NCBI GenBank assembly: GCA_019637105.1 | Contig: JAHBWF010000028.1 | Span: 1 to 61,463 of the forward strand | Origin: Labilithrix sp. | GTDB lineage: Bacteria > Myxococcota_A > Polyangia > Polyangiales > Polyangiaceae | Reading direction: 5' to 3' | DNA length: 61,463 nt | Position numbers and translations under genes: made by a program | The notes under the pieces: model-generated | Told to the model about the DNA's origin: nothing | Databases searched by the model: none | Seen by the model: the letters and a program-made list of their open reading frames with translations, nothing else | Shown: positions 19,214 through 27,983 of the stretch, in pieces | How positions within the stretch are numbered: position 1 is the stretch's first letter | How the letters are laid out: every line of letters begins with the position of its first letter

Positions 19214-21859
19214 CTACGGCTTGGAGGCCATCGGGGCCGGGGCCGCCGCCGGAGGCGCGCTTCCGTGCGTGTCGTCCGGACGGGCTCCCTTGCCGACCTT
19301 GTGGGCTCCGATCAAGTGCAGCAGCGACGGCAGGAAGAGGACCGCGGCGAGGAAGCAGGCGATCTCGCCGCCGATGGCGAAGCGCCCGAAGGACCCCAGC
19401 GCCTGGTTGTCCGCGAAGAGGAGCGAGCCGTAGCCGACGACGGTCGTGTAGCTGCACAGAGCGACGGCTCCGAAGTGCAGCTTCACGGCGCCGGTCACGT
19501 CTCCGCCGAGGAGCCGAGAGCGATCGAAGATGTTGAACGGGTACTCGGAGCCGATCCCGAACGTGATCGGCAACGCGATGAAGTTCAGGAAGTTGAGCCT
19601 CCCGCCGAAGAGCGTGGCGGTGCCGAGCATCCAGACGACGCCGAGGACGAGGGAGAGGATCACGGCGAACGTGCCGCGCTTCGACGAGGTCGCGAGGGTG
19701 ACCACGACGAGGACGGCGAGGAACGACGCCGCCGTCGCGAGGGGCCCGTCGCGCTCGAGCGAGCGGATCATCTCGGCGAACACCGTCGCCCGGCTCGCCG
19801 TGTCGACGCGCGTGCCGTCGGGCAGGCGGACGCCGTCGATCGTCTGGGCCATGCGGAGCAGATTGTGTCCGTCGTTCCGGGCGATCTCGGGCTTGTAGCG
19901 GACGTAGAGCACGGTGCCGAGCGTGCCGTCGCGCTCGGAGAAGCGCGTCTTCAAGAGGCCGGGGAGGTCCTCCGGTCCGACGACGCCGAGCGACTCGGGA
20001 GGGACCATCTCCTCGACCGTCCTCCGCTCGTCCTCGCTCAGGCTCGACATGACCTTCGGAGTGAGCCGATCGCGGATGCGCTCGAGCACCTCGAGCTTCG
20101 CCTCCTGCTCGGCCGGCGCCCCGGGGAGGAAGTCGCTCAGCGTCGTGATCGTGTCGATCATCGCGCCCTCCGGATCCGCCGCGTCGTTCGCGAGGATGCG
20201 CTCCTTCACGCCCGGCACCTGGTCGGGGTGATCGGCGAGGACGAGCGATCCGGCGAGGTTCATGCGTCCGGAGAGGATGGCGTCGGCCTTCTTGGACCAC
20301 TGGAACGCGCCGCTCGTGCGCGCGCCCTTCGAGCCGAGCTTGTCGAAGTCGTACTCCCACGGGTCCTTCAGGAACGAGGGCAGGCGAACCGACAGGGCCA
20401 GGGTGATCACCGCGGCGGCGCCGACGAACCAATAGGGCCAGCGCTCGGTGACGTTGCCGACGAAGCGCGCGACCGGTCCGCGGCTGCCTTCCTCGTCGAG
20501 CTTGCCCGGCCGCTCCTGGAGCCACGCGGGGAAGCGCTTCTGCCAGCGCTCCACGAGGACGATCAGGGCGGGGAGGCACGGGATCATCGAGATCCACACG
20601 AGCAACATCCCGAAGAACCCGATGACGCCGAACTGGCTGAACCCCCGGAAGTGGGTGATGGTGAGCGAGCCGTACGCGATGCTCGCGACGCTGGAGCCGA
20701 CCAGCTCCGCGCGGAACGCGTTCCACACCGCCTCGCGGCGCGCGAGATCGGGGCTCATCCCCCGCGCGCGGAACTCCTTGTACCGGGAGTAGAGGACGAT
20801 CGGATAGTTGACGCCGTTGCCGAGGATGATCGCGCCGAGGAACATGCCGGACGCGTTCACGTAGCCGTAGTTCCAGGTCGCGAAGGCGTACGCGCAGCCC
20901 ACGCCGAAGAGCGGCGGGAAGCCGACGAGGAGCAACGACCAGGGCGATCCGTAGAACCAGATCACGCCGACGAGGATGAGGGCCGCGGCGATCAGCGTCG
21001 CGAAGAGCGCCTCCTTGACGAGCGCCTCCTTCTCGGCGTTCGCGTTCGGGATGTCGCCGCCGAAGCCGACCTTCATCTCCGGGTGGAAGCTCGCGGGCTG
21101 GAGCTCGTTCGTGATCCGCTCGACGAGCTGCAGGAGCTGCTCGTCGTTGGCGCCGCCGAGGCCGGAGGTGGTCGACATGATGCGGAGCGCGATCTGCGTC
21201 CCGTCCTTCGAGGCGAAGTAGCCGGTCGGGAAGTCGTCCTTCTCGCCGGCGCTCTTCTCGAAGCGCTCCTTGAACTTGTCCATGCCGAGGGCGCGCTCGG
21301 CGCCGGTGTCCTCGTCGAGCAGGTCCTCGACGAGCCCGCTCTTGATCGCGATCTGCCGGTCGAGCGTGCGATCGACCTCCTCGAGGTCCTCCCCCTTGGC
21401 GTAGAGCCACTTGTTGGCCTCGAAGAAGGTGTGGATGTCCTTCGTCCCGCTCTCGATCGAGGCGATGAGATCGGGGCCGCAATCGACGCGGCACGCCTCC
21501 CCGTCGGTCCCCGGCGCGCAGCGCTGCGCACACGCGGCGCGCTCGTCCACCGTCGCGCGGACGCGCTGATCGAAGGCGTCGATGAAGCGCTCGTTCGCCG
21601 CGCGATCGGGCGACTCGCACACGATCGTCAGCGTGGCGCGGCCGCCGACGCGCTCGAGGCGTCGCTCGAACGACTGGAACCCGGGGCTGTCCCGCGGGAG
21701 CAGCTCCATGATGTCGGATCGCACCTCGAGCTTCCGCGCGTACGACCAGCAGACGACGAGCATCGCGGTCGCCCACGCGATGACGAGCCACGGGCGCCGG
21801 CCGCCGAGGTCGACCATCGCGTCCACGAACCGTCGAAATGGCGAGGAAAGACGCTGCAT
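19214..21859 (-). CDS. MMPL/RND-family transporter
   Basis: 881 residues with the two-fold MMPL layout: TM1 near residues 24-41 (PWLVIAWATAMLVVCWSYAR), a large extracytoplasmic loop with four Cys around residues 105-128, a five-helix sterol-sensing-like block near 285-430, TM7 near 475, a second loop, and a second block near 690-850. LGAIILGNGVNYPIVLYSRY and LPITFGIGSEYPFNIFDRSR are the conserved TM4/TM10-type motifs. Family members export lipids or hopanoid-type molecules using the proton gradient. Starts 161 bp downstream of the regulator of the encapsulin operon, probably a separate unit. Confidence 0.9.
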   Translation of the reverse strand: MQRLSSPFRRFVDAMVDLGGRRPWLVIAWATAMLVVCWSYARKLEVRSDIMELLPRDSPGFQSFERRLERVGGRATLTIVCESPDRAANERFIDAFDQRVRATVDERAACAQRCAPGTDGEACRVDCGPDLIASIESGTKDIHTFFEANKWLYAKGEDLEEVDRTLDRQIAIKSGLVEDLLDEDTGAERALGMDKFKERFEKSAGEKDDFPTGYFASKDGTQIALRIMSTTSGLGGANDEQLLQLVERITNELQPASFHPEMKVGFGGDIPNANAEKEALVKEALFATLIAAALILVGVIWFYGSPWSLLLVGFPPLFGVGCAYAFATWNYGYVNASGMFLGAIILGNGVNYPIVLYSRYKEFRARGMSPDLARREAVWNAFRAELVGSSVASIAYGSLTITHFRGFSQFGVIGFFGMLLVWISMIPCLPALIVLVERWQKRFPAWLQERPGKLDEEGSRGPVARFVGNVTERWPYWFVGAAAVITLALSVRLPSFLKDPWEYDFDKLGSKGARTSGAFQWSKKADAILSGRMNLAGSLVLADHPDQVPGVKERILANDAADPEGAMIDTITTLSDFLPGAPAEQEAKLEVLERIRDRLTPKVMSSLSEDERRTVEEMVPPESLGVVGPEDLPGLLKTRFSERDGTLGTVLYVRYKPEIARNDGHNLLRMAQTIDGVRLPDGTRVDTASRATVFAEMIRSLERDGPLATAASFLAVLVVVTLATSSKRGTFAVILSLVLGVVWMLGTATLFGGRLNFLNFIALPITFGIGSEYPFNIFDRSRLLGGDVTGAVKLHFGAVALCSYTTVVGYGSLLFADNQALGSFGRFAIGGEIACFLAAVLFLPSLLHLIGAHKVGKGARPDDTHGSAPPAAAPAPMASKP

Positions 21860-22020: not shown

Positions 22021-22956
22021 TCAGCCCCGCGCGCCGCCGGCGCCGGGCGATCCCCCGGGGCGAAACGCGGGGTACGTCATGACGAGGCTCATCCAGCACT
22101 CCTCGTTCGTCGGGTTGACGTACGCGTGGCCGACGTCGGCGGTGAACGCGATGGCGTCCCCCTTGCCCAGCTCGTGGCGCTCCGAGCCGAGCTCGAGCAC
22201 GAGGCGGCCCTGCGTGACGAGGAGATGCTCGCGCGTCCCGGGGGCGTGCGGCTCGGCGTCCTCGCGTCCACGCGCCGCGAGGAACAGCTCGTAGAACTCG
22301 AAGGTGCCGTCGTCGTCCGGCGAGAAGAGCGCCCGGGACGAGAAGCGCCCGTCGGCGTCCGTGATGGGCCTCGCGCTCGTGCGACGGAAGATGCGCGTCG
22401 TGCGGCGCGTCGGCTGAACGAGCAGCGCCGAGAACGGCACGTCGAACGCGCGCGCGATCTTCCAGAGCGTGCCGAGGCTCGGGACGGTGCGGCCGATCTC
22501 GACCTGGCCGAGCGTCTGCCGCCCCACGCCCGTCATCCCGGCGAGCACGTCGAGCGTCCAGCCGCGCTCGGCGCGGAGGCGCTTCAGGTTCGCGCCGACG
22601 ACGGCGTCGAGCTCCGTCACCTCCTCCTCGACCGGCGGAGCCTCCGGCTGCTCGACGGGGAGACCGGCGGCGCGCCACGCCGACGTCCCGCCTTCGAGGC
22701 TGTACACCTCGCCCACGCCGCGGCGCGTCGCGAGCTCGGCGGCTTCGTGGCTTCGTCCGCCGCGCTCGCACACGAAGATGACGCGCTCTCCGAGCTGCGC
22801 CGCGCCGAGGTCCGCGCGGAGTCGGCCGAGCGGAACGAGGCGCGCGCGCGGCACGAACCCCTTCGCCCACTCGTGCGGCTCACGTACGTCGACGACGTCG
22901 ATGTCCCCCTTCGCGATGAGCTCTTGCGCGTCGCGAGGAGCGACTGTCCGGACCAT
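22021..22956 (-). CDS. Rhodanese-XRE helix-turn-helix-cupin fusion protein (putative sulfur-responsive regulator)
   Basis: The protein has 311 residues in three modules. Residues 1-95 are a rhodanese with IDVVDVREPHEWAKGFVPRA and the active-site loop VCERGGRSHEAA, which keeps the catalytic Cys. Residues about 115-175 are an XRE DNA-binding domain (LKRLRAERGWTLDVLAGMTG, RQTLGQVEIGRTVPSLGTLW). Residues about 195-300 are a cupin (LLVTQGRLVLELGSERHEL, GKGDAIAFTADVGHAYVNPT). Rhodaneses carry persulfide on their Cys, so a natural reading is a repressor or activator that senses sulfane sulfur. It lies 35 bp after the cysteine desulfurase stop on the same strand, in the encapsulin operon. The DNA target is unknown. 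Function as a regulator is inference. Confidence 0.85.
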   Translation of the reverse strand: MVRTVAPRDAQELIAKGDIDVVDVREPHEWAKGFVPRARLVPLGRLRADLGAAQLGERVIFVCERGGRSHEAAELATRRGVGEVYSLEGGTSAWRAAGLPVEQPEAPPVEEEVTELDAVVGANLKRLRAERGWTLDVLAGMTGVGRQTLGQVEIGRTVPSLGTLWKIARAFDVPFSALLVQPTRRTTRIFRRTSARPITDADGRFSSRALFSPDDDGTFEFYELFLAARGREDAEPHAPGTREHLLVTQGRLVLELGSERHELGKGDAIAFTADVGHAYVNPTNEECWMSLVMTYPAFRPGGSPGAGGARG

Positions 22957-22991
22957 CGAGGATCTTTGATAGCAGATACCGCGCCGGAGCG

Positions 22992-24944
22992 TCAGCGCCC
23001 GGCCTGCAAGCGATGCAGCGCGCGGGCGAGCGCGTCGAGATCCTCGCACGTGTTGTACGGCGCGAGCGAGGCGCGAACCGTCGCCTCGAGCCCGAACCTG
23101 CGCAGGATCGGCTGCGCGCAGTGATGACCGGAGCGCACCGCGATCCCGTCCTGATCGAGCATGCCCCCGACCTCCTCCGTCTTCTGGCCGTCGAGGACGA
23201 ACGACAAGACCCCGGCCTTGGCGGGCGCGGTCCCGATCATCGTGAGCCCCGGCACGGTCGCGAGCGCCCTCGTGCCGTACTCGAGGAGCTCGTGCTCGTA
23301 GCGCTCGACGTTGTGGACGCCGACGCGCGAGAGCCAGTCGAGCGCCGCCCCGAGCCCGACCGCGTCGGCGATGTTGCCGGTGCCGGCCTCGAAGCGCGCG
23401 GGCGCGCTCTGGAAGGTCGTGCGCTCGAAGGTGACGTCCTGGATCATGTTCCCGCCGCCCTGCCAGGGCGGCATGGCGTCGAGGAGCTCGGCGCGCCCGA
23501 AGACCGCGCCGATGCCGGTCGGTCCGAAGACCTTGTGACCGGAGAAGACGAAGAAGTCGCAGCCGAGCTGCTGCACGTCGACCGGCATGTGCGAGACGGC
23601 CTGCGCGCCGTCGAGGACGACGACGGCGCCGTGGCGGTGCGCCATCTCGATCATCTCGCGCGCCGGGGTGATCGTGCCGAGCGCGTTCGACACCTGCGTG
23701 AACGACACGAGCTTGGTCCTTGGTCCGAGGAGCTTCTCGTACTCCTCGAGGAGGACCTGACCGCGATCGTCGACCGGCGCGACGCGCAGGCGCGCGCCCT
23801 TCTCCGAGCAGAGCTGCTGCCACGGGACGATGTTGGCGTGGTGCTCGAGCCACGAGATGACGATCTCGTCTCCCTCGGAGACGTTCCGCCGTCCCCAGGT
23901 CTGCGCGATGAGGTTGATCCCCTCGGTCGTCCCGCGCACGAAGACGATCTCGCGCGGCGACGGCGCGTGGATGAAACGGCGGACGCTCTCCCGCGCCGCC
24001 TCGTACGCGTCGGTCGCCTTCGCCGCGAGGGTGTGCGCGGCGCGATGGATGTTCGAGTTCTCGTGCTCGTAGAAATACGCGAGGCGGTCGATCACCGCCC
24101 TCGGCTTCTGCGTCGTCGCCGCGTTGTCGAGCCACACGAGGCGCTTGCCGCGCACGGGCTCACTCAGGATCGGGAACTCGCTCTTGATGACGTTCGGCTC
24201 GAGCGGGCGGTCGAGCGACGCCAGGGCCGGGTCGGCGGCCGGCGCGATCTCGAAGACGTCGAGCGCGAAGCGGGGCTCCGCCGCCGGCGCGACCGCCGGT
24301 GACGCGAACGCCGGCGACGCGAACGCCGCGGGCTCCTGGAGAGGAACGCGCAGGATCCGATCGAGGCCCACGTCCCGAGACGGATCGACGAGGAAGTCGA
24401 CGGCGTCGAAGCTCAGCGGCGCGTCCAACGGAGCCCCGCCCCACGCCGCCGTCGACGCGAACGCAGGCGGCGCCGAAGACGTCGGCACCGACGGCGCGAA
24501 CGCCGGCGACGCCGAGGACGTCGGCTGCAAGGCGGTCGGCACGAACGGCGCGGCGCTCGGCTCGGAGGCGATCGGCGTGACGGCGGTCGGCGGAGACGAG
24601 GCGGAGGCGGTCGGCGGAGACGGCGCGAGCGCGGTCGGCGGAGACGACATCGCGCTCGTGTCCGGCGTGCCCGGCACGCTCGTCGCCGGCGGCGGAGGCG
24701 CGGCCCAGAGCTGGTTCGCGATCTGCGCGATCGCGTTCGTGAGCGAGAGGGGGTCGAGCTCCGGGAGCGTCGGGCCCCCGGGCGCGCGCGCCCCGGCGAG
24801 CGCGACGCCCGGGGTCGACGTCAGCGCCGCCGACGGATAGCTCGGCGTCTCCGTCGTGCGCGGCGCGTGCGCGCTCAGCAGCGAGACCTCGCCGACCGGC
24901 GGGAGACCTCGCGGCGGAGCGCCCTTCGGATCAGGCGTACTCAT
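22992..24944 (-). CDS. SufS-type cysteine desulfurase with long disordered N-terminal cargo domain
   Basis: 650 residues, about 240 longer than a normal SufS. The catalytic part starts near residue 240 (IKSEFPILSEPVRGKRLVWL) and contains the PLP lysine motif FVFSGHKVFGPTG and the catalytic cysteine motif VRSGHHCAQP. It removes sulfur from cysteine as enzyme-bound persulfide, giving alanine. The first ~230 residues are low complexity, rich in Pro, Ala, Ser and Thr, with imperfect repeats such as SSPPTA and PAFASPA, plus one amphipathic island (LSLTNAIAQIANQLWA). In family 2A encapsulin systems such N-terminal extensions direct the enzyme into the shell. The start overlaps the shell gene by 14 bp. 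Confidence 0.93.
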   Translation of the reverse strand: MSTPDPKGAPPRGLPPVGEVSLLSAHAPRTTETPSYPSAALTSTPGVALAGARAPGGPTLPELDPLSLTNAIAQIANQLWAAPPPPATSVPGTPDTSAMSSPPTALAPSPPTASASSPPTAVTPIASEPSAAPFVPTALQPTSSASPAFAPSVPTSSAPPAFASTAAWGGAPLDAPLSFDAVDFLVDPSRDVGLDRILRVPLQEPAAFASPAFASPAVAPAAEPRFALDVFEIAPAADPALASLDRPLEPNVIKSEFPILSEPVRGKRLVWLDNAATTQKPRAVIDRLAYFYEHENSNIHRAAHTLAAKATDAYEAARESVRRFIHAPSPREIVFVRGTTEGINLIAQTWGRRNVSEGDEIVISWLEHHANIVPWQQLCSEKGARLRVAPVDDRGQVLLEEYEKLLGPRTKLVSFTQVSNALGTITPAREMIEMAHRHGAVVVLDGAQAVSHMPVDVQQLGCDFFVFSGHKVFGPTGIGAVFGRAELLDAMPPWQGGGNMIQDVTFERTTFQSAPARFEAGTGNIADAVGLGAALDWLSRVGVHNVERYEHELLEYGTRALATVPGLTMIGTAPAKAGVLSFVLDGQKTEEVGGMLDQDGIAVRSGHHCAQPILRRFGLEATVRASLAPYNTCEDLDALARALHRLQAGR

Positions 24945-25830
24945 GGTAGTTGTCGATCACCACGCCCTCGAGGCAACCGAGCGCGTCGTGCGTGAGCACG
25001 GCGACCGAGCAGTAGAGCGAGATGAGGTACTTCGCGGCGCCCGTCTGATCGATCCCCATCATGCGGACCGACAGGCTCGGGTTCACCTCGCCCGGGAGGC
25101 CCGGCTGGAAGAGGCCGACGACGCCGCGCTTTCGCTCGCCGACGCGCATCAGCAGGATCTCGCTCTTGTTGTCCTTGATCCGCAGCTTGTCGCTCGGCAC
25201 GAGCGGGAGACCGCGCCACGTGAGGAACGGCGAGCCGAAGAGCGTGACCGTCGGCGGGGGCACGCCGCGGCGCGTGCATTCGCGCCCGAACGCGGCGATC
25301 GCCCGCGGGTGCGCGACGAAGAAGGCGGGCTCCTTCCACACCGTCGCGATCAGCTCGTCGAGGTCGTCCGGCGTCGGCGGCCCCTTGCGCGTCTTGATGC
25401 GCATCTCCGGGTCCACGTTGTTCAGGAGCCCGTAGTCCTTGTTGTAGAGCATCTCGTTCTCTTGCCGCTCCTTGATCTTCTCGATCGCGAGCGTGAGCTG
25501 CTCCTTCACCTGGTCCATGGGGCTCCGGAACAGATCCGAGATGCGCGTCTGGACGGCGATGGTCGTCGTGCACGAAGCGAGGACGTACTCGCGCGGGTTC
25601 GGCTCGTAGTCGTTGAAGGCCACGGGGAGGTCTTCGCCCTCCGCCGGGCTGCACTTGACGTCGAACTTCTCGTCGAGCGCCTGATTCACGCGGTAGACGC
25701 CGGCCTCGACCGGCGCCCAGGGGATCATCTGAACGAGCCATCGCGGGGTGGCGCCACGCCACTGCGGCGGCGTCTTGGTCGTGTTCGCGAGCTGCCTTGC
25801 CGCGCGCGCACCGATGGATTGAGCGGTCAT
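24931..25830 (-). CDS. Family 2A encapsulin shell protein (SrpI-like)
   Basis: 299 residues, matching SrpI/mycobacterial MMPI-type encapsulins (about 300). Diagnostic segments are TPRWLVQMIPWAPVEAGVYR near residues 28-48, an E-loop region with DYEPNPREYVLAS, the ISDLFRSPMDQVKEQLTLAI helix, and a C-terminal KYLISLYCSVAVLTHDALG. The fold is HK97-like; such proteins self-assemble into icosahedral protein compartments. An AGGAG lies 7 bases before the ATG. The next gene is the cysteine desulfurase, the established cargo of this shell class, so the compartment very probably stores or handles sulfur. The 202 bp upstream (25831-26032) should hold the operon promoter; I see no certain boxes. Confidence 0.93.
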   Translation of the reverse strand: MTAQSIGARAARQLANTTKTPPQWRGATPRWLVQMIPWAPVEAGVYRVNQALDEKFDVKCSPAEGEDLPVAFNDYEPNPREYVLASCTTTIAVQTRISDLFRSPMDQVKEQLTLAIEKIKERQENEMLYNKDYGLLNNVDPEMRIKTRKGPPTPDDLDELIATVWKEPAFFVAHPRAIAAFGRECTRRGVPPPTVTLFGSPFLTWRGLPLVPSDKLRIKDNKSEILLMRVGERKRGVVGLFQPGLPGEVNPSLSVRMMGIDQTGAAKYLISLYCSVAVLTHDALGCLEGVVIDNYHEYA

Positions 25831-26503: not shown

Positions 26504-27739
26504 TCAGAAGCCCGGAGGCAAGACGACGCGGTCGAGCATGAACGCCCAGTCTTCGCAGTCCTCCGAGGACGGCGCCCCTTCTGGACACACGCGGACGCTG
26601 CTCGCGAGGTAAGCGAGCGAGAGGTCGGTGTACCCCGCGACGGAGGAGCCGGCGTCTCTCCCCCACGAGTTCTTCACGCGCAAGAAGGAGACGGTGGCGT
26701 CGTCCTCGAGCGCGGCGGCCATCTCGGCGGCGGTCGCGACCTCGCCGGCGGGCAGGACGGTCCCGTCGGCGAGCACCGCCTCGTAGTCGACGATCAACGT
26801 CTCGTGCGCGCACTCGCCTTCCTGCACGCCGCCGACCGCGGAGACGAAGCGCCCCTCGTCATCCTGGCCGGCCTCCTCGACGCACCACGCGACCGGCACC
26901 GGCATCGCCGCGTGCAGCGCCCGCTGGACGCGACGGAGGAACGCCTTCAGCGCGCCCGGCCGCCTCCTCACCGCGACCTCGTGATCGAGCGCCACGGTCT
27001 GGAACGCGTAGGGGCCGCTTCGCGCGTCGGCGTCGTCCCCGATCTGGTCTCCGATGCAGTCACGCAGCGTGGTCTCCCCCGCCCCACCGGGCAGGCGGGC
27101 CCGCACCGCCGCGGGCGAGAGCACCTTGCCGCTCGCGATCGCGCCCGACTCGAACGTCCTCGCGCCGTCGGCGCCGAAGACCACGTCGAGGTTCGCGACC
27201 AGCTCGCTCGAGAGCCCGAAGGCCCGATCGAGCTCCCGCCGGACCAGCGCCCCGTTGCTGCGCGCCCCCTTGGTGCGGAGGGCGCCGCTCCGGAGGCTCG
27301 CGTTCACGGCGTCCATCGCGTCGAGAGAGAGCGCCGCGTCCGCGCCGGCGGCCGTCCTTCCGGTGAACGCGCGCAGATCCATGAGCCCGTAGCGCGCCAT
27401 GAGCCCAGCCGCTCGCCCCCACGATCCGCCGGTCCACTCCACGCCGCGGAACCCGCTCTTCGCCGCGAGGATCTGCTCGTAGAAATTCCAGTAGACGAGG
27501 TAGCCGGTGGAATAGCTCGGCACCTTGCCGTCGGCGGTCACGGCGAGCGACTCGGCCCAGGCAACGGTCGCGTAGAGCCAGCAGTTGCCGGTTGCGGCCT
27601 GATCGCGGACCCCGCTGCGAGGGATGCTCGTGATGTCCGCGTCGTCGCCGAGCGTCGCGTCGTCGGTCGACGTCGCGCAGGCTCCCGAGAGGAGAGACGC
27701 GAGGACGAGGGCTCCCAAGCTCGTCGAGACGATACGCAC
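26504..27739 (-). CDS. Secreted papain-like (C1) cysteine peptidase
   Basis: 411 residues. The GTG at 27739 places a signal peptide (VRIVSTSLGALVLASLLSGA, then CA) at the N-terminus; the Cys could be lipidated. The catalytic set is present: oxyanion Gln and nucleophile Cys in RDQAATGNCWLYATV (near residues 49-58), His in AHETLIVDY (near 324) and Asn in VKNSWGRD (near 364). The pattern is closer to bleomycin hydrolase/aminopeptidase C (C1B) than to plant papain. An Asp-rich stretch (STDDATLGDDADI) follows the signal and may be a short propeptide. Likely acts outside the cytoplasmic membrane. Confidence 0.85.
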   Translation of the reverse strand: MRIVSTSLGALVLASLLSGACATSTDDATLGDDADITSIPRSGVRDQAATGNCWLYATVAWAESLAVTADGKVPSYSTGYLVYWNFYEQILAAKSGFRGVEWTGGSWGRAAGLMARYGLMDLRAFTGRTAAGADAALSLDAMDAVNASLRSGALRTKGARSNGALVRRELDRAFGLSSELVANLDVVFGADGARTFESGAIASGKVLSPAAVRARLPGGAGETTLRDCIGDQIGDDADARSGPYAFQTVALDHEVAVRRRPGALKAFLRRVQRALHAAMPVPVAWCVEEAGQDDEGRFVSAVGGVQEGECAHETLIVDYEAVLADGTVLPAGEVATAAEMAAALEDDATVSFLRVKNSWGRDAGSSVAGYTDLSLAYLASSVRVCPEGAPSSEDCEDWAFMLDRVVLPPGF

Positions 27740-27983
27740 GGCAGAGGCCGTTGTGGCATGCGCGGGTCGTCCCCGGGCCGGGCGCAAACAAAAGGAAACA
27801 TTCGGGCTGGGCCTCGATCGTCCGCGCCCGCCGACCCGAGGCACACGAATCGTGCAAGGCCCGGGCGGAGGGCACGACGACGGGCGGTCGCCGACGGGCT
27901 CTCGCAAACGTCGGCGAGAACGACAGGTGGATCGCCGCGGCGGCTCGCGCATCCGGCTCGCCCCTGCTCACCCGGGCGAGGAC

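Follow-up and report, generated by a model that had tools for sequence, protein, structure and literature searches.

Why should a rhodanese fused to an XRE-cupin protein be encoded directly behind the shell and cargo genes of an encapsulin compartment? The question is raised by a 61,463-nucleotide stretch of Labilithrix sp. (contig JAHBWF010000028.1; the window), part of an 8.45-Mb genome, in which a family 2A encapsulin shell gene and a cysteine desulfurase gene are followed by a gene for a rhodanese-XRE-cupin fusion. Shell and cargo are of a known kind; the fusion is the new part, and it bears on two open questions, the control of family 2A encapsulins and the fate of their sulfur. In an eLife study (PMC8049743), shell or cargo knock-outs had no growth phenotype. 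Joining the usual sulfur acceptor to a DNA-binding protein gives a Rosetta-stone link between sulfur fate and control, hints at a gene switch coupled to the sulfur released by the compartment, and yields predictions for single residues (Cys63 and Cys287). We favor, with moderate confidence, the reading that this 2A operon encodes a shell, a cargo and a dedicated regulator, the last being an accessory rhodanese fused to an XRE-cupin protein, and that it would be tuned to sulfur supply.

A preliminary description of this DNA had named the shell as SrpI-like, which Pfam bore out (SrpI-like, 9.5e-97), and had proposed a profile check against family 2A, which when run gave 478 bits (NF041162, encap_f2a; cut-off, 380), matching shell residues 7 to 298 to model positions 2 to 295. 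The nearest solved shells in a sequence search were PDB 8t6r (2e-121) and 6x8m, which is SrpI (1.7e-120). A cyclic-nucleotide-binding insertion would place a shell in family 2B; the 299-residue window shell has no such insertion and carries SrpI-like as its sole Pfam domain. The 2B model was narrowly passed (405 versus 400 bits) in two stretches, the best covering positions 213 to 449 of 450, and family 2B was rejected on the lack of a second Pfam domain and the better 2A score (478 versus 405 bits). Elsewhere, in three genomes of one genus (loci L043, L156, and L157 of genomes G031, G156, and G157), the 2A desulfurase operon adjoins a pair of 2B-like shell matches.

The desulfurase is of the SufS type (Pfam Aminotran_5, 4e-147; SufS, 6.1e-166) and matches the family 2A cargo model (NF041166, f2_encap_cargo1; 831 bits; cut-off, 800), both as described beforehand. 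Its SGHK and GHHCAQP stretches, which we take to be the pyridoxal phosphate-lysine and active-cysteine stretches, are identical to those of 8kg1 in the alignment. The N-terminal extension is present as claimed, at about 245 residues (the SufS model starts at residue 253) rather than the 230 or so first given, and residues 1 to 245 are 60% Pro/Ala/Ser/Thr. According to PMC8049743, the CyD cargo of SrpI has a disordered N-terminus, with LARLANEFFS as a published motif, which IAQIANQLW in the window desulfurase resembles. A strict LARLANEFFS-like pattern, composed after viewing the published motif and the window sequence, occurred in 18 of 41 desulfurase N-termini (0 in 500 shuffles) and a loose pattern in 24 of 41 (shuffle maximum, 3), the 41 being all loci with a desulfurase found among the 43 given, including L151, which has only 18 residues and ends in unknown bases. 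The second published cargo motif, AASPYYFLDG, had no clear match in the window N-terminus in a by-eye look only; several relatives have YFL-like stretches. Cargo is presumed to load into the shell through a putatively disordered N-terminus and, judged by sequence, shell and cargo are a textbook family 2A system.

Two desulfurase loci differ in build. In G021, a shell-linked desulfurase (L037, 90 to 2996) has a cargo-like start and a C-terminal part like housekeeping SufS; NifU_N and FeS_assembly_P genes come after it. We considered, and dropped, the idea that it is a misassembled chimera derived from the fusion-side desulfurase of that genome; the two contigs are only 77% identical over 841 bp, so that their desulfurases are different genes, and the L037 desulfurase is either a real hybrid or an assembly artefact. 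In G471 (L145, 9003 to 12479), about 3.5 kb of other open reading frames (ORFs) separate shell from desulfurase.

The third gene indeed encodes rhodanese, XRE, and cupin domains in one open frame, all above the Pfam cut-offs: Rhodanese (residues 7 to 96, 5.3e-15), HTH_3 (124 to 176, 5.7e-14), and Cupin_2 (230 to 288, 5.3e-11). A solved relative of its helix-turn-helix (HTH)-cupin part is 1y9q, an HTH_3 family regulator (E, 7.3e-22; residues 120 to 303). The CX4R active-site loop of the rhodanese is C63ERGGR68, and C63, G66, R68, and S69 are kept in 18 of 18 fused rows (one of the rows scored for Cys63 is cut at residue 52, and the L065 piece was grouped with the unfused rows in this tally). 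HTH residues R146, Q151, and E153 are invariant across fused rows, and cupin residues H237, E243, and H277 across fused and unfused rows. Cys287 is found in 19 of 19 fused versus 5 of 20 unfused XRE-cupin rows, the latter being those fetched, mostly top scoring, out of a larger number found, and the contrast is weakened because the rows are related; four of the five unfused rows with Cys287 fall in one small clade. Cys63 and Cys287 could form a sulfur-sensing pair. At L065 (L127, 92 to 1013), a frame change splits the fusion between rhodanese and HTH, as either a natural split or a sequencing error.

Coordinates confirmed that the three genes run head to tail from 25830 to 22021 on the minus strand, that the desulfurase gene overlaps the shell gene by 14 bp, and that the fusion gene lies 35 bp past the desulfurase stop, as had been reported. 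The 14-bp overlap (desulfurase ATG versus shell stop) occurs in 31 of 41 loci with both genes, the other 10 differing. Fusion loci from 16 of the 19 fusion genomes were scored for the distance between the desulfurase stop and a possible fusion start, which is −7 to +54 bp in 14 of the 16. The exceptions are one locus at 683 bp, with a flavin mononucleotide (FMN) reductase gene between, and L137, without a start within 800 bp. The three-gene arrangement is not chance, because overlap and fusion spacing recur across loci, and the tight spacing in the window and its relatives supports a single operon. In G008 (L039, 8266 to 8889), an NADPH-dependent FMN reductase gene lies between desulfurase and fusion.

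Non-exhaustive scans turned up the fusion in 19 different genomes; every one belongs to the Myxococcota and has a 2A shell as well. They comprise 14 genomes of the order, 4 additional named ones (L055, L056, L059, and L060), and 1 of the phylum (G202). In 13 of them, a single contig carries shell, desulfurase, and fusion consecutively (G008 with a gene between); contig ends cut the arrangement in 3, and the fusion lies away from the shell operon in 3. The named strain Nannocystis pusilla DSM 53165 (L056) has all three genes in sequence and should therefore allow tests of the system beyond metagenome assemblies. The species scan (84,980 genomes, six-row alignment A1, two peptide patterns) gave 40 loci: 16 with rhodanese and HTH-cupin (L050 to L065, of which L057 is truncated at a contig end and L065 interrupted by the frame change), plus 23 with rhodanese alone and L067, cut by a contig end, which were excluded from the fusion count. 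Twelve of these fusion loci are exact duplicates of genes in the order survey. Shell and desulfurase lie upstream on the contig in 10 of the 16, including L063 with a flavin reductase gene between; the other six have the desulfurase at a contig edge (2), start at a contig edge (2), or are non-adjacent (2), and these six, unlinked on the contig stretch, are all in genomes with a 2A shell (L059 included). Fusion-bearing relatives with titles are myxobacterial or “delta.” Among 72,556 plasmid records, 528 match part of the fusion protein and none covers 80%.

In the order survey (184 genomes), a 2A shell exceeded the cut-off in 32, and an A1 search (E no higher than 1e-40; 12 candidates from each genome scored) placed fusions in 14 (one cut, one split), all among those 32 (hypergeometric, 1.3e-12, which overstates independence because the genomes are related); the remaining A1 matches were XRE-cupin or rhodanese parts. 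The fusion is beside the shell operon on one contig in 9 of the 32 (G000, G006, G008, G013, G050, G056, G062, G063, and G133), the operon is split by contig ends in 3 (G036, G061, and G164; G061 alone proven, by a 98-bp identical overlap), and the fusion is elsewhere in the genome in 2 (G021 and G177). Nine have a nearby rhodanese match without HTH-cupin (G010, G030, G031, G111, G129, G135, G146, G156, and G157), mostly just downstream of the desulfurase (in G146 on the opposite strand, in G129 some 2 kb away). Six have neither fusion nor rhodanese nearby (G042, G053, G130, G143, G155, and G178), and three shell loci are cut too short to judge (G005, G107, and G128). In an even draw of 377 phylum genomes, 15 had a 2A shell over the cut-off and 6 a fusion (E up to 1e-95), all 6 among the 15, with G202 outside the class.

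In a tree of 43 shells, all 19 labelled shells of fusion genomes formed one clade (100/100), which the standalone-rhodanese shells L042, L145, and L148 join next (whole, 100/97); L037 (G021), L137, and L138 were labelled by genome co-occurrence, and L038 and L159 by presumed breaks between contigs. A second tree, of 47 rhodaneses, in which the “other” ones are those returned by searches and not a full sample, placed the 18 fused rhodaneses in one clade (97/92) and grouped them with standalone operon rhodaneses of L042, L130, L145, and L148 (97/78, below the tool's star). Because of this grouping, the fusion looks like the operon's accessory rhodanese plus an XRE-cupin regulator. The simplest reading of the trees is a single gain of the XRE-cupin part by the rhodanese already in the operon, after which shell and fusion would have travelled together. 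That the regulator belongs to the compartment, as first suggested, is thus upheld as a genetic tie, given the 2A shell in all 19 fusion carriers and a fused form that tracks one shell clade. Shell and fusion distances also correlate across 18 genomes (r, 0.84; 0 of 9999 permutations as high). The same co-occurrence and trees (19/19 fusion genomes found in the scans, one shell clade, a matching rhodanese tree) contradict the idea that the fusion gene is a chance neighbour unrelated to the compartment, for which only the three fusions apart from the shell operon could speak, and we reject it as highly improbable.

Both halves of the fusion exist as separate neighbours of 2A operons, since XRE-cupin and rhodanese genes each adjoin 2A shells. 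Synechococcus elongatus pANL SrpI/CyD resembles the window in shell (61% identical) and desulfurase catalytic part (70% identical), and a rhodanese gene follows cyd; unlike in the window, this gene encodes an independent protein of 116 aa, which shares 28% identity over 95 aa with the fused rhodanese. A tblastn search of 12.9 kb around that operon gave no match to HTH, cupin, or Azospirillum XRE-cupin. An Rrf2-type regulator gene (L162, 1776 to 2210) lies about 4 kb from it. On Azospirillum brasilense and A. argentinense plasmids, a 2A shell and cargo have an XRE-cupin gene beside them, as in the window (over 178 aa, 35% identical to the HTH-cupin part of the fusion), but the XRE-cupin is separate and divergent from the shell, with a serine O-acetyltransferase gene in third place. 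The genes beyond the XRE-cupin differ between the two species, and the 14.9 and 8.9 kb searched around their 2A operons held no rhodanese match. In G111 (L130, 9058 to 13293), two XRE-cupin genes and a carbonic-anhydrase-like gene are divergent from the 2A shell. Burkholderia stagnalis (L164, 3012 to 5912) and Paraburkholderia caribensis (L165, 2897 to 5906) have a rhodanese match, a transferase-like ORF (serine O-acetyltransferase-like, judged by eye), and a short HTH match ahead of the shell, the HTH match lying close to it. Methylosinus has a cupin gene before the shell and an Rrf2-type gene after the cargo (L161, 10433 to 10876).

Outside encapsulins, the sulfide-sensing repressor BigR belongs to an operon that also encodes a sulfur transferase/dioxygenase. 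BigR is of another DNA-binding family (ArsR), senses through its own cysteines, and has its transferase as a separate protein. The Pseudomonas XRE-cupin repressors ErfA, PsdR, and PauR share the HTH-plus-cupin architecture of the fusion and mostly act on genes beside their own, the targets described being metabolic genes and one virulence operon, not encapsulins (PMC7901475). Among accessory genes, Andreas and Giessen (PMC8346489) give the strongest enrichment for rhodaneses and serine O-acetyltransferases. No report of a rhodanese-XRE-cupin fusion was found in the open-licence literature on encapsulins, XRE-cupins, and rhodaneses: “XRE” and “helix-turn-helix” are absent from the main text of PMC8346489, “rhodanese,” “regulator,” and “cupin” from that of PMC8049743, and “rhodanese” from the text of PMC7901475, and in PMC5373536 XRE and rhodanese genes are separate.

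On the best reading, the regulator would be local and would read persulfide from, or in parallel with, the compartment. The encapsulated cargo would release sulfur from cysteine within the shell; Cys63 of the rhodanese would be charged by persulfide, either on its way out of the compartment or from the cytosol; charged Cys63 would alter the cupin/HTH part, perhaps via Cys287; and the altered part would change binding near the operon promoter, so tuning the operon to sulfur supply. By analogy with the Pseudomonas XRE-cupin proteins, the fusion more likely acts by repression than by activation. We infer “sulfur storage” and “sulfur-sensing,” both named in the preliminary description, for the window operon; family 2A compartments reportedly store elemental sulfur. 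A narrower version, in which Cys63 of the rhodanese accepts persulfide at the shell surface from the desulfurase inside, passes or signals it to Cys287 of the cupin domain, and so reports the amount of sulfur being released to the promoter of its own operon, is speculative and has perhaps a modest chance of holding; if true, such a compartment-reading transcription factor would connect a protein organelle directly to a promoter.

The strongest competitor, possible although we would not bet on it, is that the third protein is mainly a sulfurtransferase carrying persulfide from the cargo to other proteins, with an HTH-cupin part that merely autoregulates or anchors, in a trigger-enzyme arrangement. 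It fits the CX4R loop, intact in 18 of 18 fused rows, the HTH-cupin-less rhodaneses near the desulfurase in 9 of the 32 shell-bearers of the order and on Synechococcus pANL, and the proposal of Andreas and Giessen (PMC8346489) that a rhodanese is the sulfur acceptor of these shells. By itself it does not explain the invariant HTH (R146, Q151, and E153) and cupin (H237, E243, and H277) residues, nor the separate XRE-cupin genes that flank 2A shells elsewhere.

An XRE-cupin regulator would be expected to bind a palindrome beside its own gene or operon. In a first expectation-maximization (EM) run upstream of shells (80 restarts for the real set versus 25 for shuffles), palindromic motifs scored above 6 of 6 shuffles at each of 8 widths; once palindromy was no longer required, the start codon of the shell gene came out as the top short motif. 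With equal restarts, the palindromic cGAnCGCGCGnTCg from the regions ahead of 18 fusion-genome shells scored higher than all 15 shuffles at width 16 and again at width 20, and the 22 non-fusion regions were reached by 3 of 15 shuffles at width 16 and stood above 15 of 15 at width 20 with another motif. The fusion-set palindrome is weak, GC rich within GC-rich DNA, and a candidate only. In the G111 gap between shell and XRE-cupin is a perfect inverted repeat with 10-bp arms, GACAAGCGCA-N9-TGCGCTTGTC (4 of 100 shuffles reached arms of at least 9).

Several results count against a dedicated local regulator. The searches gave no convincing shared operator upstream of the 18 shells, and the two Azospirillum gaps contain no inverted repeat with arms of at least 7. 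No fusion was found in 18 of the 32 shell-bearing genomes of the order, and the fusion is therefore dispensable to the compartment as such. In 3 of the 19 fusion genomes it lies apart from the shell operon: L137 has it some 11 kb farther downstream, L059 on a separate contig, and G021 at the edge of a contig, next to another copy of the desulfurase. The L130 (G111) rhodanese groups with the fused ones and its shell sits elsewhere, and the branch of the HTH-cupin tree with the 19 fused rows on one side is weakly supported (83/74). Shared species history may explain the correlation of shell and fusion distances, which had no unrelated control gene, and Cys287 may be common by descent rather than function. 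The lack of a convincing shared operator and the three detached copies would suit a regulator tied to the operon by descent that acts in trans on sulfur or cysteine genes other than those of the encapsulin operon. A local role is favored instead by co-descent with the shell and by the short distance to the desulfurase gene in 14 of 16 loci, and we regard action in trans as improbable.

Features of the operon in the window are listed below.

Coordinates of the shell, cargo, and fusion features in the window
Feature	Coordinates	Strand	Evidence
Family 2A encapsulin shell (SrpI-like), 299 aa	24931..25830	-	NCBIfam encap_f2a, Pfam, PDB matches
Family 2A cargo cysteine desulfurase (SufS type), 650 aa	22992..24944	-	NCBIfam f2_encap_cargo1, SufS
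Desulfurase N-terminal extension (residues 1-245), presumed encapsulation domain, IAQIANQLW at residue 72	24210..24944	-	
Rhodanese-XRE(HTH_3)-cupin fusion, proposed local regulator, 311 aa	22021..22956	-	Pfam

On the same strand, an ORF of 482 aa at 26504 to 27952 has a weak papain-like peptidase match, and an MMPL/RND transporter gene (19214 to 21859) lies 161 bp downstream of the fusion. In the relative L036, the ORF beyond the fusion differs from this transporter gene and has an Arf-like Pfam match.

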